Origin: Bacteroidales bacterium
GTDB lineage: Bacteria; Bacteroidota; Bacteroidia; Bacteroidales; GCA-2748055
Length of the DNA stretch: 40,485 nt
Assembly (NCBI GenBank): GCA_029938715.1
Contig: JAOZUK010000025.1
Span: forward strand, 1-40,485
Reading direction: 5' to 3'
This document shows, piece after piece, positions 6,069-20,121 of this stretch; the first letter of the stretch is position 1; each line of letters starts with the position of its first letter. The translations under genes were made by a program, and so were the position numbers. The notes under the pieces are model-generated. The model was not told the origin of the DNA and ran no database searches. It saw only the letters and a list, made by a program, of their open reading frames with translations.

Positions 6069-6712
6069 ATGCAAAAAAACTTACTGATGAAACATTTTCA
6101 AACCCTTACCTGCATAGCCGTCATACTGGGATTCCTTAGCTGCAAAACTGAATCAGTACAAACAGGTTTATTCCTTCCCATTTCTATGAGATGAGCGCTG
6201 CTGAGCTCGCTGACCTATGGATCGATGAGTTTCGCCATGGCATTGAGGGCAGTGGAGTGAAGCCAGGATTTGAGCAGATTGAAGTATTAAAAGCGCAAGG
6301 AATAGATCCCTCATCCTTCATCTGGGTTCACGCACAAGGGGGAAGCCTGGAGGGTAATATGAGGGCCGCAAAGGCTGGAGCCTGGATCTCTCTGGACAAT
6401 GTGAATGCTGGAACAAAACAAGGTTCAAACTATGATATCTCCTGGTATGCCCAACGGATCGGGGCTCTGAAAAATGCAGGATTGTTGCACAGGGTATTGA
6501 TTTCCCACGATGCTGGTTGGTACTCCCCGGGTGAAGAAAATGGAGGTGACTTCAGGGGATTTACAGCACTTTTCAGCCATTTGATCCCCATGTTAGAGGA
6601 GGCTGGGTTCAGCGATGGTGAAGTGAAGCAGCTCCTTGTGGAGAATCCCATGGCTGCTTATAGTTTAAGATTCCTTCAGGTAGACAGGGGTCCAGGTTGT
6701 GATACACAGTAG
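6069..6712 (+). pseudogene. Broken lipoprotein phosphotriesterase-family gene
   Basis: The 5' part (ATG at 6069, or 6087) encodes a lipoprotein signal peptide ending LGFLSC, with the acceptor Cys about residue 25. At about 6160 the sequence jumps into another frame that reads NRFIPSHFYEMSAAELADLW and continues to 6712 as the C-terminal half of a phosphotriesterase-like amidohydrolase. Recognisable parts are GVKPGFEQIEVL, the second-domain WVHAQGG, and ISHDAGWYSPG with the metal-ligand Asp. The HxH metal site and about 130 residues that should lie between these parts are absent, so this looks like an internal deletion that also shifted the frame. The frame finally runs into the 3' end of rex on the other strand, so the native stop may be lost too. 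An inactive remnant is the best call. Confidence 0.8.
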
Positions 6713-7335
6713 ATTACGCTCTCTATTTCATCACTCAGGTTCACATTGTTGATAATAATGTGACTGGGTACTTTCAATATGACCGGGGCAAAATTGATAA
6801 TGCCTTCTACTCCTAATTCTACCAGTTGTTTGCATACTTCCTGGGCGGCAATGTCAGGAACAGCAATAATTGCGGTCTTCACCTCAAATCTCTTAACCAC
6901 CTCACCAAGTCTATCCAATGTATAGACCGGGATCTCCGATCTGAGCCGTTGTTTTGAAGGATCAATATCAAATGAGGCCACAATGTTAATCTTCCGCTGA
7001 ATGAAATTGCTGTAGTTAGCCAGGGAGGATCCTATATTGCCTCTGCCCATAATGATAATATTCTGAGAGCCATTGTGGTAGAATATAGATTCCAAATCCG
7101 CGATGAGCTTATCCACATGGTATCCTCCTCTCTGGTTCCCTTTAATCCGGTAAACAGAAAAATCCTTCCGTACCTGTTCGGCCGACACTCCGGTCTCCTT
7201 ACCCAGTGTGTAGGAATAAACCCGTTTTACGCCCAGGGTCTGCAATCGAAGCAGACTCCCTCTGTATAAAAGAATTCTTCTCAGGCTTTTTCTTAAGGGG
7301 CATATTGTGTTTTTTTTCACATTATAATTTTTCAT
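6676..7335 (-). CDS. rex: Redox-sensing transcriptional repressor Rex
   Basis: Rex is a dimeric repressor that leaves DNA when NADH rises. The 219-residue protein has an N-terminal winged-helix domain (about 1-90, with RLQTLGVKRVYSYTLG and VSAEQVRKDFS, the conserved recognition region) and a Rossmann domain with the NAD(H) loop GRGNIGSS near residue 98. The C-terminal helix swap region follows VEGIINFAPV. Its length matches the family. It is divergent from the hydrogenase operon across 174 bp, and candidate Rex sites lie just inside its own 5' end and just before the first hydrogenase gene. Both self-control and control of the operon are therefore likely. Its last codons overlap the decayed phosphotriesterase frame. 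Confidence 0.95.
   Translation of the reverse strand: MKNYNVKKNTICPLRKSLRRILLYRGSLLRLQTLGVKRVYSYTLGKETGVSAEQVRKDFSVYRIKGNQRGGYHVDKLIADLESIFYHNGSQNIIIMGRGNIGSSLANYSNFIQRKINIVASFDIDPSKQRLRSEIPVYTLDRLGEVVKRFEVKTAIIAVPDIAAQEVCKQLVELGVEGIINFAPVILKVPSHIIINNVNLSDEIESVIYCVSQPGPLST
7305..7322. promoter_or_regulatory. Candidate Rex operator inside the rex 5' end
   Basis: The 18-bp sequence reads TTGTG-N8-CACAT with a T-rich centre. It matches the general Rex consensus TTGTGAAnnnnTTCACAA at 11 of 14 fixed positions, with both outer half-site cores intact. It sits within about codons 5-10 of rex, so Rex bound here could block its own transcription. The match was made by eye. The poly-T centre is not the preferred core, so binding is unproven. 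Confidence 0.45.
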
Positions 7336-7509: not shown

Positions 7510-8505
7510 ATGAACAGAGTCGCCATTCCCAAACGCGAATGGGATGAAAGATTGATTCACCTTCTTTCATCTTTCGATGTGTTTGCACCGGTGGAGAATG
7601 AATTCAGTTCCGACTATCTGAAACTGGATGAGGAAGCCATTAGCCACATCGTTTACAATAAACCCAAACCCGTTACCCCACTAAAAAATTTCTTTCTCCC
7701 GGTGAAAGAGAATGTCACCATCGAAGGGATCCCCACAAAACCTGTTGCAATCATAGGTACGCCCAACTGCGATGTGATGGCCCTGCTATTCCTTGACCAG
7801 ATCTACCTGGATAATGAGTATCCAGATCCGGCATATGGCAAAAGAAGAGAGAACTCAACCCTCCTGTCAACAGACTGTTTAAGCATACAGGAGCATTGCC
7901 ATTGCACCAGTTATGGCATAGAACCCAAGGGAAATGAAAGTTCTGACATTTCCCTTGCACTGATTGAAGACCAGGTAATCCTGTCCGTTTTTAGTAAGAA
8001 GGGTGAAAAGTTCATAGAGGCCATGGGAATCTACGTTACCCTCACACCTGAAAAATCTCTATTGGACAGGCTCCATGAGCTGCAGGAAAACGTCAAGGAG
8101 CAGCTTCTGGAAAGAAACAAAGGTCTGCCGGACTATAAGCAGACCGGCAAACTGGTGTCAACTGCAGCTGATCCGATCTGGGAAAAATATGCTTCCGATT
8201 GCGTTTCCTGTGGAGCCTGCAGTGCCATCTGTCCCACCTGCTCCTGCTTCCTGCTGATTGATAAACCCGGTTTCGAAAAAATCAGGCAGCTGGATACATG
8301 TCAGTACCCTGGTTTTGAAAGGGTAGCAGGAGGGGAGGATGCACTCCATGCGCTTTCAGAAAGGTTCAGAAACCGCTACATGTGCAAATATGTTTGGAAG
8401 CCACAAAAATATGAGCAAAAAGCGTGTACCGGTTGCGGACGGTGCATTGAAACCTGTATTGGTCAAATCAATAAGAACGAACTGTTCATAGAGCTGTCAA
8501 ATTAG
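7510..8505 (+). CDS. Sulfhydrogenase beta-like 4Fe-4S subunit (HydB/AsrA type)
   Basis: This protein carries electrons between a flavin subunit and a hydrogenase. The 331-residue protein belongs to the family of the beta subunit of Pyrococcus sulfhydrogenase and of anaerobic sulfite reductase subunit A. An N-terminal domain of about 220 residues, with its own CHC pair near 127-129, is followed by two ferredoxin-like clusters: CVSCGACSAICPTCSC near residue 230 and CTGCGRCIETC near 306. In known enzymes it pairs with the gamma subunit, which is indeed the next gene, 6 bp on. What is unusual is that the soluble alpha and delta hydrogenase subunits are absent and a membrane hydrogenase follows instead. 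It is the first gene of the operon, divergent from rex. Confidence 0.85.
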   Translation: MNRVAIPKREWDERLIHLLSSFDVFAPVENEFSSDYLKLDEEAISHIVYNKPKPVTPLKNFFLPVKENVTIEGIPTKPVAIIGTPNCDVMALLFLDQIYLDNEYPDPAYGKRRENSTLLSTDCLSIQEHCHCTSYGIEPKGNESSDISLALIEDQVILSVFSKKGEKFIEAMGIYVTLTPEKSLLDRLHELQENVKEQLLERNKGLPDYKQTGKLVSTAADPIWEKYASDCVSCGACSAICPTCSCFLLIDKPGFEKIRQLDTCQYPGFERVAGGEDALHALSERFRNRYMCKYVWKPQKYEQKACTGCGRCIETCIGQINKNELFIELSN

Positions 8506-8511
8506 TCTGTT

Positions 8512-9336
8512 ATGAAAACGAATGGAAATCTGTATAAACCACTGAAATCCGAACTGATCAAAGTGATTGATGAATCCCCATTGATTAAAACCTTTGTGCT
8601 GGTTCCCGAACAGGATTTTTCATTTGCCACAGGACAGTTCATAGAGGTAACCATCGATGGCATGGGAGAAGCGCCTTTCACCCCTTCCTCTTCCCCTCTG
8701 AAATCGGATCAACTTGAGGTCACTGTCATGAAGACCGGTTATGTCACCGATCACATGCATACCATGAAACCAGGAGATAAAATGGGAATACGCGGGCCTT
8801 TTGGCCGGGGCTATCCGTTGGAGAATTTCCACGATAAAGAGGTCTTGATCCTTGGAGGTGGCTGTGGATTTGCGCCCATCCGGTCGCTGCTATATAACCT
8901 GATAGCTATTGCAGATAAGTTGCGGAAGGTAACCCTCTGTTATGGTTCCAAAACTCCTGAAGACTGCGTGTACAAGCCTTACATTCAGGAACTAAGAGAC
9001 ACTCCAAAGTTTGAAGTGCTACGCAGTGTAGACCAGCCCGATGAGAACTGGACTGAAAGGGTCGGAGTGGTTACGGTCCTTCTTGATGAGGTGACTATGG
9101 ATATATCCAACTCGATTGCTGTGGTCTGTGGCCCCCCGGTGATGATGAAGTTCGGCACTCTAAGATTGCTGGAAATGGGTTATCCCGAAAATGACATCTA
9201 TCTCTCTATGGAAAAAAACATGTCGTGCGGACTGGGAAAATGCGGCCATTGCATGATGGGAAAATACCTGGTTTGCAAAGACGGGCCTGTATTCACCTAC
9301 GACGAAGTGAAAGATCAACCCCATATTTGGAATTAA
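8512..9336 (+). CDS. Sulfhydrogenase gamma-like FAD/NAD(P)H oxidoreductase (HydG/AsrB type)
   Basis: This is the diaphorase subunit and would exchange electrons with NAD(H) or NADP(H). The 274-residue protein has an FNR-type flavin domain (about 1-105), a nucleotide-binding domain opening with LGGGCGFAPIRS near residue 113 and containing VVCGPPVMM near 205, and a C-terminal 2Fe-2S site with Cys 239, 244, 247 and 255. This is the dihydroorotate dehydrogenase electron-transfer/AsrB pattern. The flavin motif appears as APFTPSSSP in place of the usual RxYS, seen often in HydG proteins. Placed between the beta subunit and the Fe-S gene, it is the likely pyridine nucleotide entry or exit of the complex. 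NADH versus NADPH preference cannot be read with confidence. Confidence 0.87.
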   Translation: MKTNGNLYKPLKSELIKVIDESPLIKTFVLVPEQDFSFATGQFIEVTIDGMGEAPFTPSSSPLKSDQLEVTVMKTGYVTDHMHTMKPGDKMGIRGPFGRGYPLENFHDKEVLILGGGCGFAPIRSLLYNLIAIADKLRKVTLCYGSKTPEDCVYKPYIQELRDTPKFEVLRSVDQPDENWTERVGVVTVLLDEVTMDISNSIAVVCGPPVMMKFGTLRLLEMGYPENDIYLSMEKNMSCGLGKCGHCMMGKYLVCKDGPVFTYDEVKDQPHIWN

Positions 9337-9338
9337 GC

Positions 9339-9845
9339 ATGACAAAGAAGATACTTATAGATCTTGAAAAATTCAGGTCCATCCCGGGGAAAAGAGGTGA
9401 TGAGTCACCCCCGGAAGGTCTTTACAAGCCTTCGGTGAAACAAAATGGTTTGAAAAGTATCAGGGAGTTGGCCGTATTTAATATGACGTGCAGAAACTGT
9501 GTAGATGCACCCTGTGTGGCTGTTTGTCCGGCTGATGCGCTGGAGAAGGATCCCCAGGGCGTTATCTCGCGCTCAACCAACCTGTGTGTTTCATGCAAGT
9601 CATGTGTAGTGATCTGTCCTTTTGGGACAATGATGTCAGATTTTTTTGAGTACCACAGAGATAAAGATAATTACTATGATGTGCTGAATGAGCATGAACT
9701 AGAGCTGTTTATAAAGAGATCTCCCAAAGGTGCTGTAGAGGTTGTGGAGTTGGAGGAGGATCCGGAAAATGAGATCTACAGCCTGAACAAACACATCCTG
9801 GTCAGGGAACATAAGTGGAAAACTGAAAATTTGAAAAGCAACTGA
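9339..9845 (+). CDS. 4Fe-4S dicluster electron carrier (HycB/CooF-like)
   Basis: This 168-residue ferredoxin-like protein has Cys 51, 54, 59 and 63 (CxxCxxxxCxxxCP) and Cys 83, 86, 89 and 93 (CxxCxxCxxxCP), enough for two 4Fe-4S clusters. The ATG at 9339 is chosen because it follows the gamma-subunit stop by 2 bp. A longer frame from 9225 would lie inside that gene. The spacing of the first motif is that of HycB/HydN/CooF-type carriers, which pass electrons to membrane hydrogenases. It has no twin-arginine signal, so it is cytoplasmic. It probably bridges the HydB/HydG module to the hydrogenase core, or could accept electrons from ferredoxin. Confidence 0.85.
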   Translation: MTKKILIDLEKFRSIPGKRGDESPPEGLYKPSVKQNGLKSIRELAVFNMTCRNCVDAPCVAVCPADALEKDPQGVISRSTNLCVSCKSCVVICPFGTMMSDFFEYHRDKDNYYDVLNEHELELFIKRSPKGAVEVVELEEDPENEIYSLNKHILVREHKWKTENLKSN

Positions 9846-9846
9846 T

Positions 9847-10779
9847 ATGGGAAGCTATCTCTTTTATTTCCTTATTTACCCGGGATTTCTTTTTGCAGCT
9901 GTTATCGGAGCTTTTCTTTCGTGGTTTGACCGTAAGATCACTGCCCGGGTGCAGTTCCGTAAAGGTCCTCCAGTACTACAGCCATTTTATGATTTTTTTA
10001 AGCTGCTCCTGGTCAAAGAGACCATCCTGCCTGCCCGCGGAGCAAAAGGACTTTTTCTGGCAGCCCCGGTATTTGCAGTATTCGGAGCCACCATGGCAGG
10101 GGTTTTCATCCTGCTTCCTTTAATAAACATCACCACAGGATTTAAAGGGGACCTGATTGTCATATTCTACCTGCTAACCATTCCATCCCTGTGCTATGTG
10201 ATCGGAGCTCTTGCCTCTGGCAATCCCCTGGCCGCAGTGGGCGCCTCCAGGGAAATGAAACTGATTATGAGTTATGAGCTCACATTTCTGCTTGTGTTGG
10301 CGGGAATCATCATCAAAGCCGGTCAGAGTATTGACCTGTACCAGATCATCCAGATGCAACAGGAGGGAACACCATTTATTGGCAGCATCTCAGGGATATT
10401 ACTTTTTATAGTGGCCATTTTTTGCCTCCAGGCCAAATTGGCAATGGTACCTTTTGATATGCCTGAGGCAGAAACCGAAATCTGTGGTGGGATTTTCATT
10501 GAGTATTCGGGAACTCCATATGCCATGGTCAAGCTTTCAAAATACATGCTTCTCTTTATACTTCCGGCTCTTGTGATTGCCATTCTAATGAATGGGATCA
10601 GACTGGAAGGACTGGGTATCCTCTGGGCGGTGCTTAAGCTGGTAGCGGTGGTCCTGCTGCTTACTCTCATTCGCAACACCAATCCCCGGGTGAAAATCAA
10701 GCAGGCCATCCGCTTCTTTTTTGTCTGGATGAATCTATTGGCAATCATTGCTATTGTACTTGCAATCTTTGGCTTATAA
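9847..10779 (+). CDS. Group 4 hydrogenase membrane subunit, NuoH/MbhM/EchB-like
   Basis: This is the membrane anchor that couples the hydrogenase arm to the ion-translocating arm. The 310-residue protein has about eight hydrophobic segments. Family marks are DRKITARVQFRKGPP near residue 28 and MPEAETEICGGIFIEYSG near 208, which carries the charged residues lining the proton/quinone channel in complex I. The length fits EchB/MbhM better than NuoH, which is longer. It starts 1 bp after the Fe-S gene and precedes the small hydrogenase subunit by 11 bp. Confidence 0.92.
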   Translation: MGSYLFYFLIYPGFLFAAVIGAFLSWFDRKITARVQFRKGPPVLQPFYDFFKLLLVKETILPARGAKGLFLAAPVFAVFGATMAGVFILLPLINITTGFKGDLIVIFYLLTIPSLCYVIGALASGNPLAAVGASREMKLIMSYELTFLLVLAGIIIKAGQSIDLYQIIQMQQEGTPFIGSISGILLFIVAIFCLQAKLAMVPFDMPEAETEICGGIFIEYSGTPYAMVKLSKYMLLFILPALVIAILMNGIRLEGLGILWAVLKLVAVVLLLTLIRNTNPRVKIKQAIRFFFVWMNLLAIIAIVLAIFGL

Positions 10780-10790
10780 AATATAAAAAC

Positions 10791-11204
10791 GTGAGCTTCA
10801 AAAGTTACTGTTTTAAAAAATCACTCTGGCTCTTCCACTTTGGAGGGGCATCCTGTAACAACTGTGATATTGAAATACTAGACTGCCTTACACCCAGGTA
10901 TGATGTGGAAAGGTTTGGAATGATACTGGTGGGAAGTATCAGACATGCCGATGTACTCCTGGTCAACGGCTCCATCAATAAAAAGGATAAACCACGCCTG
11001 CTTGAAATATATGAACAGGCACCCAAGCCTGTTCTGGTTGTGGCCATCGGAGCCTGTGGGTGCACGGGGGGAATCTTTGCAGAAGGCAATACATTTGCCG
11101 GACCGGTGGATAAGATCATACCTGTGGATGCCTACATTCCGGGATGCCCTCCGAAGCCAGAGGCAATACTGGCGGGGGTTGTCAAACTAATGGGTAAAAA
11201 CTAA
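10791..11204 (+). CDS. Group 4 NiFe hydrogenase small subunit (NuoB/MbhJ/EchC-like)
   Basis: This subunit holds the single 4Fe-4S cluster next to the NiFe site. The 137-residue protein has Cys 22 and 25 (CNNC), Cys 89 or 91 (GACGC) and Cys 119 (PGCPPKP), the four-ligand proximal-cluster pattern of complex I-related hydrogenases. It lacks the extra C-terminal clusters of uptake hydrogenases and has no export signal, so it faces the cytoplasm. It uses a GTG start at 10791, which fits the family N-terminus and the spacing after the NuoH-like gene. Confidence 0.92.
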   Translation: MSFKSYCFKKSLWLFHFGGASCNNCDIEILDCLTPRYDVERFGMILVGSIRHADVLLVNGSINKKDKPRLLEIYEQAPKPVLVVAIGACGCTGGIFAEGNTFAGPVDKIIPVDAYIPGCPPKPEAILAGVVKLMGKN

Positions 11205-11210
11205 GTTGCG

Positions 11211-11657
11211 ATGCTTGTTGATGAACTGAAAAATAAATTCTCCAAAGAGATCCTGGAAACCAGATCCAGAAATGATCGTCGAGTTAGCCTGCATATATAT
11301 CCGGCTTCACTCATACGTATTTCTGAGTACCTTTTTAAAAATCTTGGATTAAGATTTATCATTGCTTCTGCTTTACATACAAAGAAGGGTTTCGAGATCT
11401 ATTACCATTTCAGCCTCGACAGCACAGGCCTTATCCTGAACCTTCATGTTTTACTGGATCCCGAAAAACCTGAAGTGGAATCACTTACCGGCATGTTTGA
11501 AGCCACCAACTGGATCGAACGGGAAATGCACGAGCTTTTTGGTATTAATTTCCTCAACCATCCCAACCTGGACCAACTCTTATCGGAAGGGAACTGGGCA
11601 AAAGGAGTATATCCCTACAGAAAAACTTTTAAATCAAATGGGGAGGTACAATCATGA
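11211..11657 (+). CDS. NuoC/MbhK/EchD-like hydrogenase subunit (30-kDa family)
   Basis: This is a structural subunit next to the large subunit. The 148-residue protein carries the signature EREMHELFGINFLNHPNL near residues 103-120, which defines the complex I 30-kDa family. In group 4 hydrogenases it is a separate short protein, as here. Its stop overlaps the start of the large-subunit gene by 4 bp (ATGA), so translation is probably coupled. Confidence 0.9.
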   Translation: MLVDELKNKFSKEILETRSRNDRRVSLHIYPASLIRISEYLFKNLGLRFIIASALHTKKGFEIYYHFSLDSTGLILNLHVLLDPEKPEVESLTGMFEATNWIEREMHELFGINFLNHPNLDQLLSEGNWAKGVYPYRKTFKSNGEVQS

Positions 11658-12859
11658 GCAAACAAACACTGATTCCGGTCGGGCCCTACCATCCCTTACA
11701 GGAAGAGCCTGAATTATTCAAGCTATACTGTGAAGGAGAAATCGTAAAGGATGTTAAGTGGGAAACAGGATACAACCATAGAGGCATTGAGAAGTTGGCC
11801 GAACAGAAAAGCTATGACGAGGTGTTTTTCCTGGTGGAAAGAATCTGTGGGATCTGCTCCACTTCTCATCCATTTGCTTTTGCCAATGCCGTGGAGGAGA
11901 TCGCAGAAGTGGAAGTCACTAACAGGGCCAAATACATCCGGTCGATCATTGGCGAACTTGAAAGAATTCACAGTCACCTTCTCTGGGTAGGTCTTGCGGG
12001 GCACTTCCTGGGATATAACACGCTATTTATGTGGGCCTGGAAATACAGGGAGCCTGTACTGGACCTCTTCGAAATGATCACAGGAAACAGGAACTCTTAC
12101 GCCATGTTCAAGGTGGGTGGGGTTAGAAGGGATATTGAAAATACTAAAATCACAACCATTGCAAAGGTACTCGCACTGGTAAAGAAAAAAACAGACTTGC
12201 TGGTTGGAGCAGTCATGGACGATCCGGTGATTCATGCGCGCACCAAAGGGGTAGGCATACTTACAAAAGAAGATATCCTCAATTTTGCTGCTGTGGGCCC
12301 AACAGCCAGAGCATCGGGAGTTGATATAGATATACGGCGGGATGATCCCTATGCGGCCTATCCGCTGGTTAATTGGAAAGTGATTACTGCCCAAGCAGGG
12401 GATGTCTTTGCCAAAGCAGAGGTAAGGTTGCTGGAAATGTATGAGTCCATCTCCATTATTGAACAATGCCTTGAAGGGCTTAAAAAAGAAAAAGAAGGAG
12501 ACATTGATGTGAAAATCAAGCACATCCCTGAAGGATATGGTACAGGTCGTGCCGAAGCACCAAGAGGCGAAGTGTTTCACTTTGTGATTTCAGACGGATC
12601 CAATTCACCGGCTCGTCATAAGATTCGCGCCCCCAGTTATACCAATATAGCCACTTTTAAAAAATCCTGTGTGGGCCAGAGCATCTCCGATGCAACCATC
12701 TCCCTGGCTGCAGTTGATCCCTGTTATTGTTGTACTGAAAGACTAGCAGTTGCCCTGGACAGGAACAGTGGAAAACGAATTATGAATGCCAAAGAGATCA
12801 TTGCTCACTCTACATTAATAACCCAGAACTTGCTTCAACTGCATAATCTTTCAAAATGA
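11654..12859 (+). CDS. Group 4 NiFe hydrogenase large subunit (NuoD/MbhL/EchE-like)
   Basis: This is the catalytic subunit that makes or splits H2. The 401-residue protein keeps both NiFe-binding motifs: RICGICSTSH with Cys 65 and 68 near the N-terminus, and DPCYCCTER with Cys 357 and 360 near the C-terminus. Complex I NuoD and the sulfane reductase MbsL lack one or more of these Cys, so this is a real hydrogenase and not a complex I or Mbs relative. The tail of about 40 residues after the second motif may or may not be processed. A maturation protease is encoded later in the operon. The N-terminus (VGPYHPLQEEPELFKL) matches the Mbh/Ech side of the family. Confidence 0.95.
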   Translation: MSKQTLIPVGPYHPLQEEPELFKLYCEGEIVKDVKWETGYNHRGIEKLAEQKSYDEVFFLVERICGICSTSHPFAFANAVEEIAEVEVTNRAKYIRSIIGELERIHSHLLWVGLAGHFLGYNTLFMWAWKYREPVLDLFEMITGNRNSYAMFKVGGVRRDIENTKITTIAKVLALVKKKTDLLVGAVMDDPVIHARTKGVGILTKEDILNFAAVGPTARASGVDIDIRRDDPYAAYPLVNWKVITAQAGDVFAKAEVRLLEMYESISIIEQCLEGLKKEKEGDIDVKIKHIPEGYGTGRAEAPRGEVFHFVISDGSNSPARHKIRAPSYTNIATFKKSCVGQSISDATISLAAVDPCYCCTERLAVALDRNSGKRIMNAKEIIAHSTLITQNLLQLHNLSK

Positions 12860-14718
12860 CCCAGGCCATAAATATCATCGTTCTGCCCGTTCTGATCGGA
12901 TTGTTGCTTTTTCTGCTTCCATCCGCCTTAAGAGTGTTCAAAGGCCTCATAGCCATAGGAGTCACCCTCTATACTGCAATAGCATCAGTATCATTGTTTG
13001 GTACCCCCGATTTGATTTTCAACCTGGGAGAATGGCTGCTTACCAGGAGTATTGAAACCCCGGTGTCGGCTGCATTGGTACAGACCCTGGAAGCCGGATC
13101 GTTTTCAATGGATGGCCTGAGCAGATTGATCATACTTTTCATCAGCCTCCTGGCAGTTCTGATCGTGGTTTATTCAATAGTATATAAGAGTGCCGGATCC
13201 CTTAGAAATTATTATGCCTGGTTTCTGATTACCCTTGGATTCTCTTTTGGAGCGGTCCTTGCAAACAACTTGCTTCTCTTACTTATCTGCTGGGGAATCC
13301 TGGGACTCACCCTTTACCAGTTAATAGACAGAAAGGATGAAGCCAGTAGTAAAGCCGCTAAAAAAACCCTTATAATCATAGGTGCTTCAGACGGGATCAT
13401 GATCTTGGGCATTGCTTTGATCTGGAGGATTACGGGCACCCTTAATATGAATGAAATCACCCTTCCGACCAGTGATCTGGTCAGAACCGTTGCATTTCTG
13501 GCCCTGCTGGTGGGAAGTTTTACCAAGGCAGGTGCCTTCCCATTTCACACCTGGGTTCCCGACTACAGCGAAAAGGCACCTGCCACTTCCTCATCCTATC
13601 TTCCTGCCTCCCTGGACAAATTACTGGGCATCTATCTGCTGGCCAGGATCACCACAGAACTCTTTGTTTTGGGAGACTGGATTCGTTTTCTTCTGCTGTC
13701 CATTGGGGTGATCACCATTATTACTGCGGTAATGATGGCCCTTGTACAACATAACTATAAAAGATTGCTGGGGTTCCATGCGGTATCACAGGTGGGGTAT
13801 ATGATCCTGGGATTTGGTCTTGGATCTGCAATCGGAATTGCAGCCGGACTCTTTCATATGGTCAACAATGCCATCTATAAAGGAGGCCTCTTTCTGACCG
13901 CTGGAGCGGTGGAACAACAAACGGCTAAGGAGAACCTGGACGATCTTGGAGGTCTTTCCAAGGCCATGCCTTTCACTTTTTTTGCTGCATTGATTTTTGC
14001 CCTTTCAATTTCAGGGATCCCTCCCTTCAATGGTTTTGCTTCCAAATGGATGATCTACCAGGGGATAATCGATTTTGGTGCGGGCGTGGGGATTGCAAAT
14101 AAGCTCTGGGTGGTCTGGTTGGGGCTTGCTGTTCTGGGTTCGGCACTCACCCTGGCCAGCTTTGTGAAGTTCATTGGTGGTATTTTCCTGGGCCGGCGGC
14201 AAAAAGTATTCAATAACCTGGGTGAAGTATCCCCTCTTATGTGGGTTCCCATGGTCATCCTTTCCCTGGCATGTGTCGGATTGGGAGTCTTTGCCACTTC
14301 TTATATAGTACCCGAATTATTTATGCCGGTAGCAGGAGCTTTTGAATTCACGGGTACATGGTCCTCTGCTACTGTGAGTCTTCTGGTACTTGTATCCATC
14401 GTACTTGGCATTTTGATCTATTATCTGGGTAACACAAAGAATGTACGTACATCCGATAGTTTTGTGGGAGGGGAAAAATTACAGGAAGAATTCTCATTCA
14501 CTACTCCCGAATTCTATAAAAGTTTCCAGGAGTTCAAGTGGCTTTCCTACATGTACCGGAATGCCAGGGATAAATGGTTTGATCTCTATGATCTCATGGG
14601 CCGATTCTGTTCCTGGCTGGGATCACTCTTCAGCCGGGCTCATACCGGTATTTTACACGACTATACATTATGGGTATTTGCGGGTCTGGTCATCCTTTTG
14701 CTATTGCTTATCACCTAA
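12856..14718 (+). CDS. Antiporter-like membrane subunit, NuoL/HyfB-like, lacking the TM5 Glu
   Basis: This is a large ion-translocating subunit of the membrane arm. The 620-residue protein has about 14-16 hydrophobic segments and a C-terminal helix of NuoL style (GILHDYTLWVFAG). The conserved TM7 and TM8 lysines are present (TKAGAFPFHTWVPD near 220 and SLDKLLGIY near 255), as is the later Lys in FASKWM near 395. The usual TM5 motif W-E is W-G (CWGILG, residues 145-150), so the glutamate that pairs with the TM7 Lys is missing. Together with the next gene, which resembles the MrpA tail, it looks like a split MrpA. Its start overlaps the large-subunit stop by 4 bp. Confidence 0.9.
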   Translation: MTQAINIIVLPVLIGLLLFLLPSALRVFKGLIAIGVTLYTAIASVSLFGTPDLIFNLGEWLLTRSIETPVSAALVQTLEAGSFSMDGLSRLIILFISLLAVLIVVYSIVYKSAGSLRNYYAWFLITLGFSFGAVLANNLLLLLICWGILGLTLYQLIDRKDEASSKAAKKTLIIIGASDGIMILGIALIWRITGTLNMNEITLPTSDLVRTVAFLALLVGSFTKAGAFPFHTWVPDYSEKAPATSSSYLPASLDKLLGIYLLARITTELFVLGDWIRFLLLSIGVITIITAVMMALVQHNYKRLLGFHAVSQVGYMILGFGLGSAIGIAAGLFHMVNNAIYKGGLFLTAGAVEQQTAKENLDDLGGLSKAMPFTFFAALIFALSISGIPPFNGFASKWMIYQGIIDFGAGVGIANKLWVVWLGLAVLGSALTLASFVKFIGGIFLGRRQKVFNNLGEVSPLMWVPMVILSLACVGLGVFATSYIVPELFMPVAGAFEFTGTWSSATVSLLVLVSIVLGILIYYLGNTKNVRTSDSFVGGEKLQEEFSFTTPEFYKSFQEFKWLSYMYRNARDKWFDLYDLMGRFCSWLGSLFSRAHTGILHDYTLWVFAGLVILLLLLIT

Positions 14719-14729
14719 TCTGATCAAAT

Positions 14730-15257
14730 ATGGAATTGACAATTTCCATCATACTTGGATTTATGATTATCGGGGCCATCTATGCGCTCCATGCGAAAGA
14801 CTTATTATCAGCAGTGATCGCCATGGGAATTGTGGGATATGGCCTGGTCATCTGCTTCCTTCTGTTAAAGGCTCCAGATCTGGCCATCGTACAGATTGTG
14901 GTTGAAACCATCACACTGGTAATTATGGTGGCCGTGGTACTTGACAGCACCCGGAAAGAGGTGGAAATCAAACTTGACAGGCGCACCATCATAAACATCT
15001 TAACCGGCTTCGTGGTATTCGCTGGCTTGTTTTACTTCTTTATCCTTGCCATCCAGAATCTGGATCCTCTGGGGGCCCACTCCCTCAGAATGTCGGAAGC
15101 CTATGTAGAGGGAGCTGTTGAAAAAACCGGCAGTGTTAACCTGGTTACAGGTGTGCTATTTGATTTCAGGGCATACGATACCCTTGGTGAGGCTGTAATA
15201 CTCTATACAGCTGCCCTGGGGGTACTAACCCTGCTTAGAATAAAAGGAAAAAAATAG
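14730..15257 (+). CDS. MbhD-MbhE fusion (DUF4040 plus MrpA C-terminal-like)
   Basis: This 175-residue membrane protein joins two parts that are separate genes (mbhD, mbhE) in Pyrococcus and form the tail of MrpA in Mrp antiporters. Residues 1-85 have three hydrophobic segments and the DUF4040 motif APDLAIVQIVVETITLV, with a conserved Glu. Residues 90-175 have two more segments and the FDFRAYDTLGEA motif of the MbhE/MrpA end. It sits between the NuoL-like gene and mrpB, the expected place. It probably forms part of the sodium/proton path of the membrane arm. Confidence 0.87.
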   Translation: MELTISIILGFMIIGAIYALHAKDLLSAVIAMGIVGYGLVICFLLLKAPDLAIVQIVVETITLVIMVAVVLDSTRKEVEIKLDRRTIINILTGFVVFAGLFYFFILAIQNLDPLGAHSLRMSEAYVEGAVEKTGSVNLVTGVLFDFRAYDTLGEAVILYTAALGVLTLLRIKGKK

Positions 15258-15263
15258 TTGCAT

Positions 15264-15701
15264 ATGGAAGGAATGTCCATCATTGTTAAAAAGGTTAGCC
15301 AGCTCTTAGCTGGGCTTATATTTGTGTATGGTATATATATTATCCTTCATGGTCACCTTACTCCCGGTGGAGGTTTTGCAGGTGGGGCCATCATCGCAGG
15401 AGCCTTCATTCTGCTCATCCTGGCCAATGGCAGCAGTGCCCTGAATCTGAAAAAGGAGATTTCAGGATCCTCCAATACGGAAAGCCTGGCTATCCTGATG
15501 GTGGTTGTTCTTGCAATGATGTCCCTGGCTTTTGGAGTGAAAGTTTTCTTTTCCAATTTTTTACCTAAGGGAGAACCGGGAGAACTTTTAAGCGCCGGCG
15601 TGATTCCCCTGTACAATATTTTCATTGGTATCGAAGTGGCAGGAGCTATTCTAACCATCTTTCTTGCTCTGGTAATCTTTAAAGAGGAGAGTTCAAAATG
15701 A
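15264..15701 (+). CDS. mrpB: Mrp-type subunit B (MnhB/MbhF-like)
   Basis: This is a small membrane subunit of the sodium-translocating Mrp module. It has four hydrophobic segments and the family signature YIILHGHLTPGGGFAGG near residues 26-42. I use the ATG at 15264. A TTG two codons earlier (15258) directly follows the previous stop and would only add two residues. The stop overlaps mrpC by 4 bp. In Mbh this subunit lies at the heart of the proposed Na+ channel. Confidence 0.92.
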   Translation: MEGMSIIVKKVSQLLAGLIFVYGIYIILHGHLTPGGGFAGGAIIAGAFILLILANGSSALNLKKEISGSSNTESLAILMVVVLAMMSLAFGVKVFFSNFLPKGEPGELLSAGVIPLYNIFIGIEVAGAILTIFLALVIFKEESSK

Positions 15702-16036
15702 GTGTATATATATTAAGCTTCGTCCTTTTCCTTGTAGGATTATATGGGGTGATCACCCGGAGAAATCTCATTAAAATCGTTATTTCACTTTCAATCATGG
15801 AATTCAGCATTTTTATGATCCTGGTCCTGGTAGGTTATATAGACAATGGACTGGCGCCAATAGTGGATCCGGCCTCAGGTGGACAGATATATGTGGATCC
15901 CCTCCCCCAGGCCATGGTGCTGACAGCCATTGTGATCGGACTGGCTACAACGTCCATGCTTATGGCAATCGCCATCCGACTTTACAGGAAATACAAGACA
16001 TTTGACATTCGCGAACTTAAAAACCTGAGAGGATAG
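15698..16036 (+). CDS. mrpC: Mrp-type subunit C (NuoK/MnhC/MbhG-like)
   Basis: This 112-residue protein has three membrane helices, in the NuoK fold. The family motifs LYGVITRRNLIKIVISLSIM (about 17-36) and DPLPQAMVLTAIVIGLATTS (about 68-87) are both present. It starts in a 4-bp overlap with mrpB and is followed after 3 bp by mrpD, the standard Mrp order. The role is in ion translocation next to the antiporter-like subunit. Confidence 0.93.
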   Translation: MSVYILSFVLFLVGLYGVITRRNLIKIVISLSIMEFSIFMILVLVGYIDNGLAPIVDPASGGQIYVDPLPQAMVLTAIVIGLATTSMLMAIAIRLYRKYKTFDIRELKNLRG

Positions 16037-16039
16037 CTT

Positions 16040-17575
16040 ATGGAAGCAATGATCCCCCTTTTCGTAGCCATACCGCTGATTTCAGCCTTCCTGATTGTGC
16101 TTCTCAGCAAATTGATCAATGGATTCCATAAAATTTTTGCCCCATTTAGCCTGCTGGCTTTGCTCTTCATGGCTGTTTATATATTTACCAATCTGGACAA
16201 CACCTCCATGACTTATGCCATGGGAGGATGGGGTCTGCTTAATGATTTACCCATTGGGATTTTTCTGGTTCTGGATGGCTTTTCCATCCTTATGCTTGGC
16301 ATCATCAACATCATTGGATTTATTGCCCTTTTCTATTCCCTGTCCTATATCTCAAAGTATACCGCCGAAAGCAATTACTATGCCCTGTTTTGTCTGATCA
16401 TTGCAGGTATGAATGGAGTGGTGCTTAGTGGAGATTTATTCAATCTCTTTGTATTTCTGGAGGTATCTGTTATTTCTTCCTATGCACTGGTGGCATTCGG
16501 AGTGGGGAAAACCGAACTGGAAGCATCGTTTAAATACCAGGTGCTTGGTGGACTGGCCTCCATGCTTATATTACTGGCCATTGGGTTAATATACTGGAAA
16601 ACCAAGACTCTGAATATTGCCGATGTGCGAAATGTGATGAGTGGTGGTTTCAGCAGGCCTTATTACATTTTTGTTCAGGTATTGCTACTGACCGGATTTG
16701 GATTGAAGGCCGCCATTATCCCATTCCATGCGTGGCTTCCTGATGCGCATTCCTCAGCACCCTCTCCCATTTCAGCCATGTTATCAGGGGTACTTATAAA
16801 AGCTGTTGGAATTTACGTTCTGATCCGCCTCTTCTTCAATATGTTTGAATTCACACATGAAATTGCTGTTGTGTTCACAGTCCTGGGCACCATTTCCATG
16901 GTGATCGGATCCCTGGTGGCGCTTGTTCAATGGGATGTAAAACGCCTGCTTGCCTATTCCAGCATCAGTCAGATGGGTTACATCGTCATGGCCTTTGGAA
17001 TGGGTATGATTCTGCTTATTAAGGGTGACAATGAGCCTGCGGCTATTCTGGCAATCGGCGGGGGTATCTACCATATGATTAATCATTCTGTATTCAAGGG
17101 GCTTTTGTTCCTGAATGCAGGGGCGCTGGAATACAGGCTCGATACGAGAGATCTGAAGCAAATGGGGGGCCTTTCTAAAGCCATGCCTGTCACCTCATCC
17201 ACTTCGCTAATGGCCTCCATGTCCATCTCAGGACTTCCTCCCTTCAACGGTTTTTTCAGCAAACTGATTATTATCATCGCTGCTGTTAACGGGAAATTTT
17301 ATATTCTGGCAGTTCTGGCCATTGTAATCAGCATCATTACCCTGGCCTATTTTTTAAAGTTTCAGCATTATGCCTTCTATAACAGGACTCCTCTTAAGTC
17401 CCTGGATAAGATAAGGGAAGTGCCTTTCCCGATGACTTCCAGCATGATCCTTCTGGCCATCTTATGTCTTGCTTTAAGCCTGCTGGCGTTACCTTCTGTA
17501 AACGAAGCAGTATTGCATCCCGCCATACAGGTACTGATGCAATCCGATCTCTATTCCATAACCCTCATACCTTAA
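16040..17575 (+). CDS. mrpD: Mrp-type subunit D, antiporter-like (NuoN/MnhD/MbhH-like)
   Basis: This is the second and canonical antiporter-like subunit. The 511-residue protein has about 14 helices. The TM5 glutamate is present (FVFLEVSVISSY, about 138-149), as are the TM7 Lys (GLKAAIIPFHAWLPDAHSSAP, about 228), the TM8 Lys (LIKAVGIY), the WDVKRLLAYSS motif and the TM12 Lys in FFSKLI. This contrasts with the NuoL-like gene upstream, whose TM5 Glu is lost. It likely drives proton or sodium transfer coupled to H2 chemistry. Confidence 0.93.
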   Translation: MEAMIPLFVAIPLISAFLIVLLSKLINGFHKIFAPFSLLALLFMAVYIFTNLDNTSMTYAMGGWGLLNDLPIGIFLVLDGFSILMLGIINIIGFIALFYSLSYISKYTAESNYYALFCLIIAGMNGVVLSGDLFNLFVFLEVSVISSYALVAFGVGKTELEASFKYQVLGGLASMLILLAIGLIYWKTKTLNIADVRNVMSGGFSRPYYIFVQVLLLTGFGLKAAIIPFHAWLPDAHSSAPSPISAMLSGVLIKAVGIYVLIRLFFNMFEFTHEIAVVFTVLGTISMVIGSLVALVQWDVKRLLAYSSISQMGYIVMAFGMGMILLIKGDNEPAAILAIGGGIYHMINHSVFKGLLFLNAGALEYRLDTRDLKQMGGLSKAMPVTSSTSLMASMSISGLPPFNGFFSKLIIIIAAVNGKFYILAVLAIVISIITLAYFLKFQHYAFYNRTPLKSLDKIREVPFPMTSSMILLAILCLALSLLALPSVNEAVLHPAIQVLMQSDLYSITLIP

Positions 17576-17579
17576 TCCC

Positions 17580-18065
17580 ATGAGATACCTGGCTCTGTTT
17601 ATATTAACGTTCCTGTTCTGGTTGCTACTGACATTAGATGTGTCGCTTGTAAATCTGGTTGTAGGAGCAGTTGTGGCATTGATCACATCATTGCTATTTT
17701 CAAAATACTTTTTTGATAAGGGATACAAATTCCTTCAACTTCATCGCTATTTCTGGCTCCTGGTTTACATTGTGATCTTAATTTGGGAATGCATCAAGGC
17801 AAACTTCGATGTTGCATACAGGGTTCTTCATCCTGCCATGCCCATTAAACCAGGAATTGTAAAGGTAAAGCTGAATCTGCAATCGGATTTTGCCAGGGCC
17901 ATGCTGGCCAATTCCATCACCATGACACCCGGTACCATTGCGGTGGATATCGTGGGTGACGACCTCTATATCCACTGGATCTATGTGAGTTCAGAAGATC
18001 CAGAGGAATACAGTCAGAAAATTGCCGGACGGTTTGAAAAATACATTAAAAAGACCTTTGACTAA
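17580..18065 (+). CDS. mrpE: Mrp-type subunit E (MnhE/MbhA-like)
   Basis: This 161-residue protein has two N-terminal membrane helices (about 3-25 and 55-75), then a cytoplasmic domain with the family motifs ARAMLANSITMTPGTIAVDI (about 103-122) and DDLYIHWIYV. It follows mrpD by 4 bp and overlaps mrpF by 1 bp. In Mrp complexes it is a peripheral structural subunit. In Pyrococcus Mbh the E-F-G genes come first, while here they follow subunit D as in Mrp operons. Confidence 0.92.
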   Translation: MRYLALFILTFLFWLLLTLDVSLVNLVVGAVVALITSLLFSKYFFDKGYKFLQLHRYFWLLVYIVILIWECIKANFDVAYRVLHPAMPIKPGIVKVKLNLQSDFARAMLANSITMTPGTIAVDIVGDDLYIHWIYVSSEDPEEYSQKIAGRFEKYIKKTFD

Positions 18066-18328
18066 TGGATCTACTTGAGATACTTCTGTATATTCAGATT
18101 GCATTAAGTGCTTCCTGCCTTTTCAGGATTATTCGCGGACCCTCCATTGCCGACCGGATGGTAGCCATAGATATTTTTGGTGTTCTTGTGGTTGGAATCT
18201 GTGCCATACTCTCCATTATAAGTGAAAGAGGTTTTATCCTAGATATCGGGATTGCATGGGTCATGCTCAGTTTCATCGGGACACTTACACTTGCTAAATA
18301 TTTAAGTGGGAAAAAACTAAACGAATAA
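18065..18328 (+). CDS. mrpF: Mrp-type subunit F (MnhF/MbhB-like)
   Basis: This 87-residue protein has three helices. The family motif RIIRGPSIADRMVAIDIFGV (about 22-41) is intact, including the conserved Asp/Arg pairs. It overlaps mrpE by one base and lies 1 bp before mrpG. It is part of the sodium-path end of the Mrp module. Confidence 0.92.
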   Translation: MDLLEILLYIQIALSASCLFRIIRGPSIADRMVAIDIFGVLVVGICAILSIISERGFILDIGIAWVMLSFIGTLTLAKYLSGKKLNE

Positions 18329-18329
18329 A

Positions 18330-18647
18330 ATGGTAAGCACTATACTTATAGCCATTGGAGTACTCTTCAACCTGTTTGGCTGCATCGGATTGATCCGGCT
18401 TCCGGATGTTTATAACAGACTTCAGTCTGCAACCAAATGTGGAACGCTGGGCACATGCAGCATCCTGGCCGGGGCACTGATTCATTTTGGCTTCATGGAT
18501 GCCGGAATCAAAGCCCTCATCGCAATACCTTTGCTCTTCTTTGGAGCAACAGCGGCTGCCCATGCCCTCGTAAGGGGCGCCTATCATTTTGGAGTCAAAC
18601 TAGGGGACAAAAGTGTAAAGGACGATTATAAAGATATTGCGAAATGA
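18330..18647 (+). CDS. mrpG: Mrp-type subunit G (MnhG/MbhC-like)
   Basis: This 105-residue protein has three helices. The family motif GCIGLIRLPDVYNRLQSATK (about 17-36), followed by TCSILAG, is diagnostic of MnhG. It ends in a 4-bp overlap with the next Fe-S gene. It completes the B-C-D-E-F-G set of the Mrp module. Confidence 0.92.
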   Translation: MVSTILIAIGVLFNLFGCIGLIRLPDVYNRLQSATKCGTLGTCSILAGALIHFGFMDAGIKALIAIPLLFFGATAAAHALVRGAYHFGVKLGDKSVKDDYKDIAK

Positions 18648-19252
18648 AGTATCCAAAAATCAGGGAACTAAAGGAAGCGGTGGTGTCTCTTTTATCACCC
18701 GCATACACCTCTTCCTTTCCAAAAAAAGCCCATACTCCCTTTGAAAATTTCAGAGGAAAACCGGAAGTCAATGATAAAGAATGCGTAGGATGTGAAACCT
18801 GTTCCCATGTTTGTCCATCCAAAGCCATTACCATTGTGGACAACCGGGAAACCGGGATCAGAGAGATCACAAGGGATTTCGGTAAATGTATTTTCTGTGG
18901 AATGTGTCAAGAGCACTGTATAACGGGAAAGGGAGTTATCCTATCTGATAAGATATTCGATCTGGCTGTTTTTGACAGGACTAAAATCGTAGAAAAACAG
19001 GAAAAAGATCTGGTGGTGTGTAAACACTGCAGCGCCATCATTACCACCGCAGACCACATTCAATACCTGCATAAAAAGCTTGGGCCAAAAGCATATGCCT
19101 CCATCCTTAATCTGAATCTCCTTCATGAAAAGCTCGAACTGGCTCCCCGGGAAGAGACCGATGTGGAGATCAAAGACGGATTGAAACGCAAAGATATGTT
19201 CAACATCATCTGTCCCAACTGCATGCGATCCGTTCTAATTGAATATATTTAA
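18644..19252 (+). CDS. NuoI/MbhN/EchF-like 4Fe-4S subunit with C-terminal CxxC pairs
   Basis: This subunit links the electron donor to the hydrogenase core. The 202-residue protein has two 4Fe-4S motifs: Cys 47, 50, 53 and 57, and Cys 82, 85, 88 and 92. A C-terminal extension of about 100 residues holds two further pairs, CKHC (126, 129) and CPNC (190, 193), which could form one zinc or rubredoxin-like site. The extension is longer than EchF or MbhN normally has. The gene is separated from the other hydrogenase core genes by the Mrp module, yet overlaps mrpG by 4 bp, so it belongs to the operon. Confidence 0.87.
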   Translation: MKYPKIRELKEAVVSLLSPAYTSSFPKKAHTPFENFRGKPEVNDKECVGCETCSHVCPSKAITIVDNRETGIREITRDFGKCIFCGMCQEHCITGKGVILSDKIFDLAVFDRTKIVEKQEKDLVVCKHCSAIITTADHIQYLHKKLGPKAYASILNLNLLHEKLELAPREETDVEIKDGLKRKDMFNIICPNCMRSVLIEYI

Positions 19253-19258
19253 TCCCCG

Positions 19259-19708
19259 ATGCCTGAACTGTCAGAATTACTTGATAATGCACACATGCTG
19301 TTGTTTATTGGGGTGGGCAATGTGTTGAAGTGCGATGATGGCGTTGGAGTTGTCATCAGCAGACAGATCAGGGAGAGGCCTGATATCCTTTCGCTTACAG
19401 TTGAAGTCAGCATAGAAAACTATATAGGAAAAATCAATTCCATGAAGCCCGGTGCCATTGTGATTCTCGATTGTATGGAGCTTGGATCCGATCCTGGTAC
19501 CTACCGGATCATCTCTCTCGACCATGTGGAAGATATGACCTTCAATACCCACAACATCTCCCTTAGCAGGGTAGGTGACTTTTTTCGATTTCCCTCTTAT
19601 GTGCTTGGGGTTCAGCCTTTATGTATTAATTTTGGGGATGAACTATCCCCTCCGGTTCAACATACAGCCCACCGCATCATCAGCCAGATTAACCAACAAA
19701 AAAACTAG
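19259..19708 (+). CDS. Hydrogenase maturation protease (HycI/HyaD family, M52)
   Basis: This nickel-dependent endopeptidase trims the C-terminus of NiFe hydrogenase large subunits after nickel insertion. The 149-residue protein has the N-terminal signature GVGNVLKCDDGVG (about 18-30), with Asp 26/27 at the first nickel-ligand place, Asp 71 in VILDCMELG, and His 98 in the THNISL motif. All three metal ligands are accounted for, with Asp in place of the more common Glu at the first. It lies 6 bp after the Fe-S subunit. No hypABCDEF genes are in the window, so other maturation factors must be elsewhere. Confidence 0.88.
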   Translation: MPELSELLDNAHMLLFIGVGNVLKCDDGVGVVISRQIRERPDILSLTVEVSIENYIGKINSMKPGAIVILDCMELGSDPGTYRIISLDHVEDMTFNTHNISLSRVGDFFRFPSYVLGVQPLCINFGDELSPPVQHTAHRIISQINQQKN

Positions 19709-19710
19709 CT

Positions 19711-20121
19711 ATGGCTAATAACTATTATTGTCCCATTTGCAGAAGCAACATAAACATTGGCAACTCCCTTGTCTTTTCTGCCAAATCGCCAGAAAACAAA
19801 AAAGGGCTCGTTTTCCTTGACACTGAACTAGGAAATTACACCAAAAGCACCCATCCCGATTTTGAACTCCAGGAGGGTGTGGAGTACAAATTCTATTGCC
19901 CGGTATGTCGTGCCAAACTTAATAAGGAAGAGAATCCAAACCTTGTGAAAGTGCATATGACCGATCGGGAAGGAGATGAATTTGAAATTAACATCTCCAA
20001 TATTATTGGCGAGCATTGTACGTATAAGATCGAGGAGAAGAGGGTTCAGGCATTTGGACCGGATGCAGATCGCTACAAGAAATACCTGGATCTACCTCTT
20101 GAGTATCACAAGTACCTGTAA
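19711..20121 (+). CDS. CPxC metal-binding protein at the end of the hydrogenase operon
   Basis: I do not recognise a named family. The 136-residue soluble protein has two matching knuckles, YYCPICR (Cys 7, 10) and FYCPVCR (Cys 63, 66), typical of one zinc-ribbon or rubredoxin-like site built from two halves 53 residues apart. Only one other Cys is present, near residue 110. The gene starts 2 bp after the protease stop, so it is co-transcribed and is a candidate accessory factor for the hydrogenase (assembly, metal delivery or electron transfer). It does not have the spacing of HypA. Function is open. Confidence 0.7.
   Translation: MANNYYCPICRSNINIGNSLVFSAKSPENKKGLVFLDTELGNYTKSTHPDFELQEGVEYKFYCPVCRAKLNKEENPNLVKVHMTDREGDEFEINISNIIGEHCTYKIEEKRVQAFGPDADRYKKYLDLPLEYHKYL

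Follow-up and report, generated by a model that had tools for sequence, protein, structure and literature searches.

A conserved Bacteroidales operon uniting HydB/HydG-like subunits, a group 4 [NiFe] hydrogenase and an Mrp-type arm, with Rex and maturation genes adjoining in most relatives

Which electron donor feeds a membrane-bound hydrogenase whose operon opens with genes for an NAD(P)H-type flavin module? The question is raised by a stretch of 40,485 nucleotides from a Bacteroidales bacterium (contig JAOZUK010000025.1 of assembly GCA_029938715.1), referred to below as the window, in which 18 genes at positions 7510-20121 encode relatives of the HydB and HydG subunits of sulfhydrogenases, a group 4 [NiFe] hydrogenase core and an Mrp-type sodium/proton module. 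On balance, we judge it probable from the sequences that the products form one membrane complex, in which NADH, perhaps together with ferredoxin, would be oxidised with release of H2, reversibly coupled to ion flow and under the control of the redox-sensing repressor Rex.

These 18 genes form a single operon. All their open reading frames (ORFs) are in frame on the plus strand, the intergenic gaps range from -4 to +11 bp, and the next listed ORF lies 148 bp downstream. The uninterrupted operon described in a first-pass annotation of this DNA was thus confirmed, with one correction, the start of the CooF-like gene being moved from 9336 to the ATG at 9339. Gene identities were assigned by Pfam and NCBIfam profile searches, which returned no informative family match for the 18th gene, and promoter and terminator scans of the window gave signals no better than those of shuffled sequences. 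The genome is a draft of 6.2 Mb (97.4% complete, 4.3% contamination), and all statements on gene copy number are subject to the caveat that this assembly is larger than any of the 17 genomes listed for its genus (2.1-4.8 Mb).

The conservation of the operon was followed among relatives of its large subunit, of which a species-level genome collection holds at least 420; the best 80 were fetched, so that close relatives are over-represented in the counts given here. All 80 belong to Bacteroidota, the majority under a Bacteroidales title, and many come from sediment, fen or digester samples according to their record names. The nearest loci, at 90-92% identity, belong to metagenome-assembled genomes (MAGs) named as Bacteroidales, Bacteroidota or Bacteroidetes, and a MAG label is lacking from two records of the 80 (Labilibacter sediminis CG51 and Marinilabiliaceae bacterium JC017). 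The genes from HydB to the large subunit were in the same order, with HydBG leading, in 63 of the 64 loci having enough upstream sequence; in the lone exception (L115), HydBG and most Mrp genes were missing by search, but runs of N mark scaffold gaps at both breaks. All 17 genes from HydB to HycI were in order in 47 of the 49 loci with enough sequence on both sides. One locus (L118) had no HycI match and no run of N to account for the gap. Two Bacteroidota genomes from outside the class of the window, G294 and G677, have the same gene order at 57% large-subunit identity. The comparison with other genomes, which the first-pass annotation had proposed, thus indicates that HydBG travels with the hydrogenase. 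In a phylum sample of 395 genomes the large subunit was found only in the genome of the window and in G294, a further 16 sequences that matched at E <= 1e-60 being Nuo-like, and in the class of G294 it was found in only 3 of 391 genomes, the third, besides G294 and G677, having it at the very beginning of a contig. A scan of viral contigs found no relative. Searches of a plasmid collection yielded reference hydrogenases and HydB homologues in other settings; among the regions inspected, a minority of the matches there, the three with annotation (L135, L136 and L137) showed no HydBG-hydrogenase operon, and a fourth (L138) carries no annotation.

Is the membrane core a genuine hydrogenase? By profile searches, a complete NuoH/B/C/D/I-like core is present, consisting of a NuoH/MbhM-like membrane anchor (9847-10779, PF00146), a NuoB/MbhJ-like small subunit with conserved Cys (10791-11204, PF01058), a NuoC/MbhK-like subunit (11211-11657, PF00329), the large subunit (11654-12859) and a HycF/NuoI-like subunit (18644-19252). 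In the large subunit, the L1 (RICGIC) and L2 (DPCYCC) motifs are intact, and all four Ni-Fe cysteines (C65, C68, C357 and C360) are invariant in 80 of 80 sequences, those of the window plus 79 loci after omission of a single short fragment; for cysteine counts in general, ORFs outside 75-135% of the length of the window protein were dropped. A C-terminal tail follows L2, as in HycE, and would be removed by the HycI-type maturation protease encoded at 19259-19708 (TIGR00072, 78.9 bits against a cut-off of 47.45). Among solved structures, the large subunit scored highest with that of Mbh (6cfw_L; 280.8 bits), followed by formate hydrogenlyase (FHL; 7z0s_E, 264.4 bits), and the best complex I chain in the same search of the PDB reached 200.8 bits. 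The large subunit is, as far as its sequence can tell, that of a group 4 [NiFe] hydrogenase with intact ligands, as the first-pass annotation had claimed, and H2 activity is predicted. It was the sole match in a PF00374 search of the genome.

A phylogenetic tree was built with Escherichia coli HycE and HyfG, Pyrococcus furiosus MbhL, and Azospirillum, Butyrivibrio Ech and Nuo-like sequences as references. The Bacteroidales sequences and that of G294 formed one clade (support 100/99); the backbone to the group 4 references was weak (69/17), with long branches, and did not settle the sister branch. What speaks against the possibility, raised in the first-pass annotation, that the large subunit belongs among non-hydrogenase relatives is the retention of all its Ni-Fe ligands, whereas 24 Nuo-like homologues from Bacteroidota that were checked have no CxxC (one of them cut by a contig end). 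One of these 24 is a paralogue from the same genome (L042, contig 744), where an Mrp-linked NuoD-like cluster without Ni-Fe cysteines contains two MrpD-like genes together with MrpB-, C-, E-, F- and G-like genes; to judge by its sequence, it is an Ehr/Mbx-like complex.

The ion-translocating arm is likewise complete. The MrpA-like parts are divided between a first antiporter-like subunit of 620 amino acids, MrpA-N/NuoL-like (12856-14718; 169.2 bits with MrpA 7qru_A, its nearest match, and 165.1 bits with MbhH 6cfw_H), and an MbhD/MbhE-like protein corresponding to the C-terminal part of MrpA (14730-15257, PF13244 and PF20501). They are followed by MrpB (15258-15701, PF04039), an MrpC/NuoK-like subunit (15698-16036, PF00420), a second antiporter-like subunit of the MrpD/MbhH type with 511 amino acids (16040-17575, PF00361; nearest to MbhH 6cfw_H, 258.9 bits), MrpE (17580-18065, PF01899), MrpF (18065-18328, PF04066) and MrpG (18330-18647, PF03334). 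Pfam and PDB matches thus bear out the full Mrp-type module of the first-pass annotation, to which the second antiporter-like subunit has to be added. Within 6cfw, chain H alone was matched by both antiporter-like subunits, and P. furiosus Mbh has one such subunit. Two antiporters have been described in an Asgard group 4 hydrogenase and were not found in other structurally characterised ones, according to excerpts of that report (PMC11291895).

The module at the head of the operon comprises a HydB/AsrA-like multi-[4Fe-4S] subunit (beta; 7510-8505), recognised by profile matches and with 16 invariant cysteines (n=64), and a HydG/AsrB-like subunit with FAD/NAD(P)H and [2Fe-2S] sites (gamma; 8512-9336), in which C239, C244, C247 and C255 are invariant (n=68). 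Next comes a CooF-like ferredoxin subunit with two [4Fe-4S] clusters (9339-9845; eight invariant cysteines, n=70). Near the other end of the operon, the HycF/NuoI-like subunit also has two [4Fe-4S] clusters, with extra CxxC pairs (12 invariant cysteines, n=56); it scored 103.7 bits with the formate hydrogenlyase iron-sulfur subunit model NF009053, below the cut-off of 204. HydB and HydG remained far below the cut-offs of the NCBIfam equivalog models, both for sulfhydrogenase (133.6 bits against 690 for HydB, 161.9 against 650 for HydG) and for Asr, and are on this evidence family-level relatives of sulfhydrogenase and Asr subunits rather than equivalogs. For the HydG-like protein, the models ranked PRK08345 (hydrogenase gamma subfamily, 212.8 bits), AsrB (207.2), ShyC (177.0) and HydG (161.9); all these matches are below cut-off, and a preference for NAD or NADP is not readable from them. 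Both proteins align to P. furiosus sulfhydrogenase I (PDB 9nez), with matching cluster cysteines as judged by eye in the aligned stretches. Apart from the HydG-like protein, profile searches recognised no flavin subunit in the operon.

HydB is single-copy in the draft genome, the PF00374 search revealed no sulfhydrogenase alpha partner, and no AsrC was found above the TIGR02912 cut-off (best match 33 of 324 bits). Among the partners tested, HydB is therefore left with no other than this hydrogenase, and the description of the module as lacking its sulfhydrogenase alpha partner held. A further use of such a module is seen on a plasmid of Ilyobacter polytropus (L137), where HydB-like and FAD/NAD(P)-binding genes adjoin Hdr-like subunits.

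The putative regulator of the operon offers a first indication of its role. A Rex gene lies divergent to HydB in 51 of the 59 loci with enough upstream sequence; in the window, it occupies 6676-7335 on the minus strand, and its product exceeds the cut-off of the NCBIfam equivalog model NF003996 (208.5 bits against 138). Rex responds to NADH/NAD+: it binds DNA when this ratio is low and is released upon NADH binding, its consensus being TTGTG-N8-CACAA (PMC13077300). At least 9 of the 10 core bases of this palindrome were matched in 51 of 55 Rex-HydB regions (the window and 54 loci) when the scan was extended 30 bp into the start of Rex, and in 46 of the 55 without the extension. The same score was reached by 0.6% of 2083 random 260-bp segments from the same loci, by 1.3% of 228 AT-rich ones and by 1.7% of shuffled Rex-HydB regions. 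In 37 of these regions the best site was located 184-194 bp upstream of HydB, as in the window (TTGTG-N8-CACAT, 9 of 10 core bases, at 7305-7322, 188 bp before HydB); in another 8 it lay no more than 10 bp from HydB, so that conserved coding sequence is not the whole explanation. We infer that Rex binds this predicted operator-like site. Firmicutes provide precedents, the same palindrome underlying the predicted Rex control of CODH/ECH operons (PMC13077300) and a related TTGTTA-type motif that of ech-hyp operons (PMC5886521). Elsewhere in the same genome (L153, contig 64), [FeFe] hydrogenase-domain genes, additional to those described below, stand with a 33% Rex-like match nearby.

Maturation genes are a second recurrent feature of the surroundings. 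Upstream of HydB, hyp genes were found in 45 of the 53 loci having at least 4 kb there, mostly hypF, C, D and E, some with A and B in addition. Rex stands between them and HydB in 41 of these 45, and in 40 the hyp genes trail it on its strand. In the genome of the window, hypBAF and hypCDE are located elsewhere (hypB, F, D and E identified by NCBIfam, hypA and hypC by eye), so that, with HycI in the operon, a maturation system is present. HypD was found in 7 of 8 genomes of the family with the large subunit versus 2 of 20 without it (Fisher p 0.0002, ignoring relatedness and completeness). The Rex and Hyp context, absent from the first-pass annotation, is the best clue to the physiology of the enzyme.

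From a mechanistic point of view, the operon products would assemble into one membrane complex linking a nicotinamide nucleotide, either NAD(H) or NADP(H), to protons/H2 by electron transfer, with the FAD and [2Fe-2S] cluster of HydG at the nucleotide end. The invariant cluster cysteines of HydB, HydG and the CooF-like and HycF-like subunits make possible a route from HydG through the [4Fe-4S] chain of HydB to the CooF-like and HycF-like subunits, the NuoB-like small subunit and finally the Ni-Fe site. The reaction would be coupled to Na+/H+ movement via the NuoH-like anchor and the Mrp arm with its two antiporter-like subunits. Rex, leaving DNA at high NADH, would control the operon in most relatives, and the most plausible function of a hydrogenase that carries an NAD(P)H-type module and is made at high NADH is to remove NADH by forming H2. 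Disposal of NADH electrons during fermentation would then be the most likely role of this complex, which is probably reversible. NADH at its midpoint (-320 mV) is a weak donor and supports H2 only to about 70 Pa (PMC5626996); coupling to the ion gradient would raise this limit and drive the reaction when H2 is elevated, or part of the electrons could come from ferredoxin. The nucleotide used, the direction of the reaction, the ion carried and the stoichiometry are inferred. As for the link between NAD(P)H, H2 and an ion gradient suggested by the first-pass annotation, the part that stood is that one [NiFe] locus holds both a module of the NAD(P)H type and an Mrp-type arm; the donor and the direction given here are putative. 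In a bolder version, which we regard as possible yet doubtful, inward Na+/H+ flow through the two antiporter-like subunits of the Rex-controlled complex would drive H2 formation from NADH without ferredoxin. If true, such a complex would resemble complex I but operate toward protons, and would accomplish alone what reverse Rnf and Ech would do in combination.

Several observations weigh against the main proposal of an NADH-linked, Rex-controlled complex. The NADH sensed by Rex says nothing about the nucleotide used by the enzyme itself, and the HydDB table lists group 3b enzymes carrying this type of module as NADP-coupled, the group 4 relatives with described chemistry using ferredoxin, formate or CO (PMC5037454). 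The same genome encodes, on contig 710 (L152, 3346-6940), NuoE-like and NuoF-like proteins and an [FeFe] hydrogenase above the cut-off of the NCBIfam model for NADH-dependent group A6, and NADH-linked H2 production may therefore not need the operon described here. Across 39 loci, pairwise distances correlated with those of the large subunit for HydB (0.88) and HydG (0.82), but also for Rex (0.76), so that the correlation is evidence of a shared ancestry of the island rather than of contact between the proteins. Regarding Rex control, no adjacent Rex was found in 8 of the 59 loci, one of them at a scaffold gap, and those without it include both records not labelled as MAGs (L106 and L121); no Rex match was found at the loci of G294 and G677. 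In the window, the operator-like site extends over the opening codons of the called Rex ORF and is not significant on its own, two other 9/10 matches occurring in the 40 kb, and the hyp cluster of the same genome has no Rex-like site of at least 9/10.

Among the alternatives, the one to be taken most seriously, despite being less probable than the NADH-driven complex, is a ferredoxin-driven enzyme of the Mbh type, in which reduced ferredoxin and NADH would both be oxidised to H2 by confurcation, or in which ferredoxin would be the principal donor, with HydBG branching off toward NAD(P)+. POR-type genes are present in the genome and, with the [FeFe] enzyme, suggest that ferredoxin is probably available; the CooF-like and HycF-like subunits offer docking sites for it. 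The core is moreover nearest to Mbh in the PDB, a class listed as ferredoxin-coupled in the HydDB table (PMC5037454). Against this reading, no flavin subunit other than the HydG-like protein was recognised in the operon. To our knowledge, no bifurcating flavin has been described for a HydB/HydG-type module. Mbh of P. furiosus functions without HydBG, and the conservation of HydBG here would still need a reason.

The same flavin module could also run in the opposite direction, and an H2-uptake machine is an unlikely though reasonable reading, in which H2 oxidation would reduce NAD(P)+, with ion movement balancing the reaction, and feed biosynthesis or respiration. The HydDB table (PMC5037454) describes group 3b enzymes, which carry this module type, as physiologically reversible, and the group A6-type [FeFe] enzyme provides a second candidate for NADH-linked H2 release in this genome. 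Derepression through Rex, however, would then turn on a producer of NADH when NADH is already high. As the complex is probably reversible, this reading overlaps with that of NADH disposal, and the two are not mutually exclusive.

It appears improbable that HydBG is a separate soluble reductase, acting on sulfur or sulfite or as an NAD(P)H diaphorase, with no tie to the hydrogenase beyond their common operon. Pairs of this type do serve other enzymes, namely Asr, as the NCBIfam names indicate, and the Hdr-linked cluster of Ilyobacter; here, however, HydBG heads the operon in nearly all loci and in two distant Bacteroidota genomes, and neither AsrC above cut-off nor another [NiFe] large subunit was found in the genome. 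A hydrogenase-like Ehr/Mbx complex without H2 activity is very improbable indeed: such complexes carry Mrp-like subunits (PMC6349859) and the genome holds one in L042, without the cysteines, but the conserved Ni-Fe ligands strongly oppose this assignment, as do HycI, the C-terminal tail and the Hyp linkage. Membership in Ehr, Mbx or Mbs was rejected on the intact Ni-Fe cysteines.

The operon ends with a conserved Zn-ribbon-like protein of 136 amino acids (19711-20121, CxxC ... CxxC), found in 43 of 54 testable loci. A PDB fold search with its predicted model, which is of moderate quality (pLDDT 79.1), gave no match at E <= 0.001, and our guess is that it could be a hydrogenase assembly factor. 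Of the 52 loci that extend downstream of the operon, 14 have a gene there that was named by eye as transketolase-like. Beyond Rex, at 6191-6712, the window contains an amidohydrolase/phosphotriesterase-like ORF of 173 amino acids (named by eye), which may be truncated, those of three relatives having 209-229 amino acids.

The combination of an operon-borne NAD(P)H-type module with adjoining Rex and maturation genes in most relatives makes the question of the donor testable. NADH-dependent H2 release would matter for syntrophy in sediment, fen and digester settings. Labilibacter sediminis CG51 and Marinilabiliaceae bacterium JC017 offer a possible route to experiment, and neither has Rex beside the operon.

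Among known systems, Mbh of P. furiosus (PDB 6cfw, HydDB group 4d) provides the closest solved large subunit (38% identity) and also has an Mrp-type arm; the Bacteroidales operon differs from it by two antiporter-like subunits and a HydG-like flavin subunit. Mbh has no HydB/HydG-like flavin module. Sulfhydrogenase I of the same organism (PDB 9nez, group 3b) has homologues of both HydB and HydG, but a different large subunit and no membrane arm, and is soluble. The closest hydrogenase in the plasmid collection, a group 4 enzyme of Azospirillum thermophilum (L135, 45.7% large-subunit identity), adjoins a gene of the aldehyde:ferredoxin oxidoreductase family and has no HydBG annotated; it lies near hypA. 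The Asgard enzyme resembles the Bacteroidales one in joining two antiporter subunits to a [NiFe] core, but is archaeal, with proposed ferredoxin oxidation (PMC11291895). The Firmicutes ech-hyp (PMC5886521) and CODH/ECH (PMC13077300) operons are also of group 4 type and under predicted Rex control, ech-hyp being in addition associated with hyp genes; no HydBG module is described in the excerpts of either paper, and the ech-hyp motif is of the TTGTTA type.

The nearest precedent for the whole assemblage is that of Saganbacteria RX5A, in which group 4 [NiFe] subunits, Mrp-like subunits, cooF, asrA, asrB and a molybdopterin oxidoreductase lie in one region; its nearest hydrogenases are in Zixibacteria and Omnitrophica, and the authors called the cluster enigmatic and likened it to Mbh (PMC6349859). 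The statement of the first-pass annotation that the three modules are usually seen apart was consequently too strong. In our partial coverage of the literature, to which other reports may be added, this module mix was found only there, and we did not find the Bacteroidales form of the operon without a molybdopterin enzyme, nor its link to Rex and the operator-like site, nor that to Hyp. Compared by description only, the two clusters share the hydrogenase and Mrp-like subunits, cooF, asrA and asrB, and differ by the molybdopterin oxidoreductase, absent here; the excerpts of PMC6349859 mention no link to Rex or Hyp. Mrp-linked enzymes of group 4g have been reported in Cloacimonadota and Omnitrophota (PMC8542988), and genome papers on uncultured lineages, including that one, assigned ferredoxin as the donor of group 4g by inference. 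This group is loosely clustered and of undetermined role according to HydDB (PMC5037454), and polyphyletic (PMC11291895). The module mix is hence known in outline, and the Bacteroidales enzyme, to which we give no HydDB class, is of the same poorly known Mrp-linked kind as group 4g.

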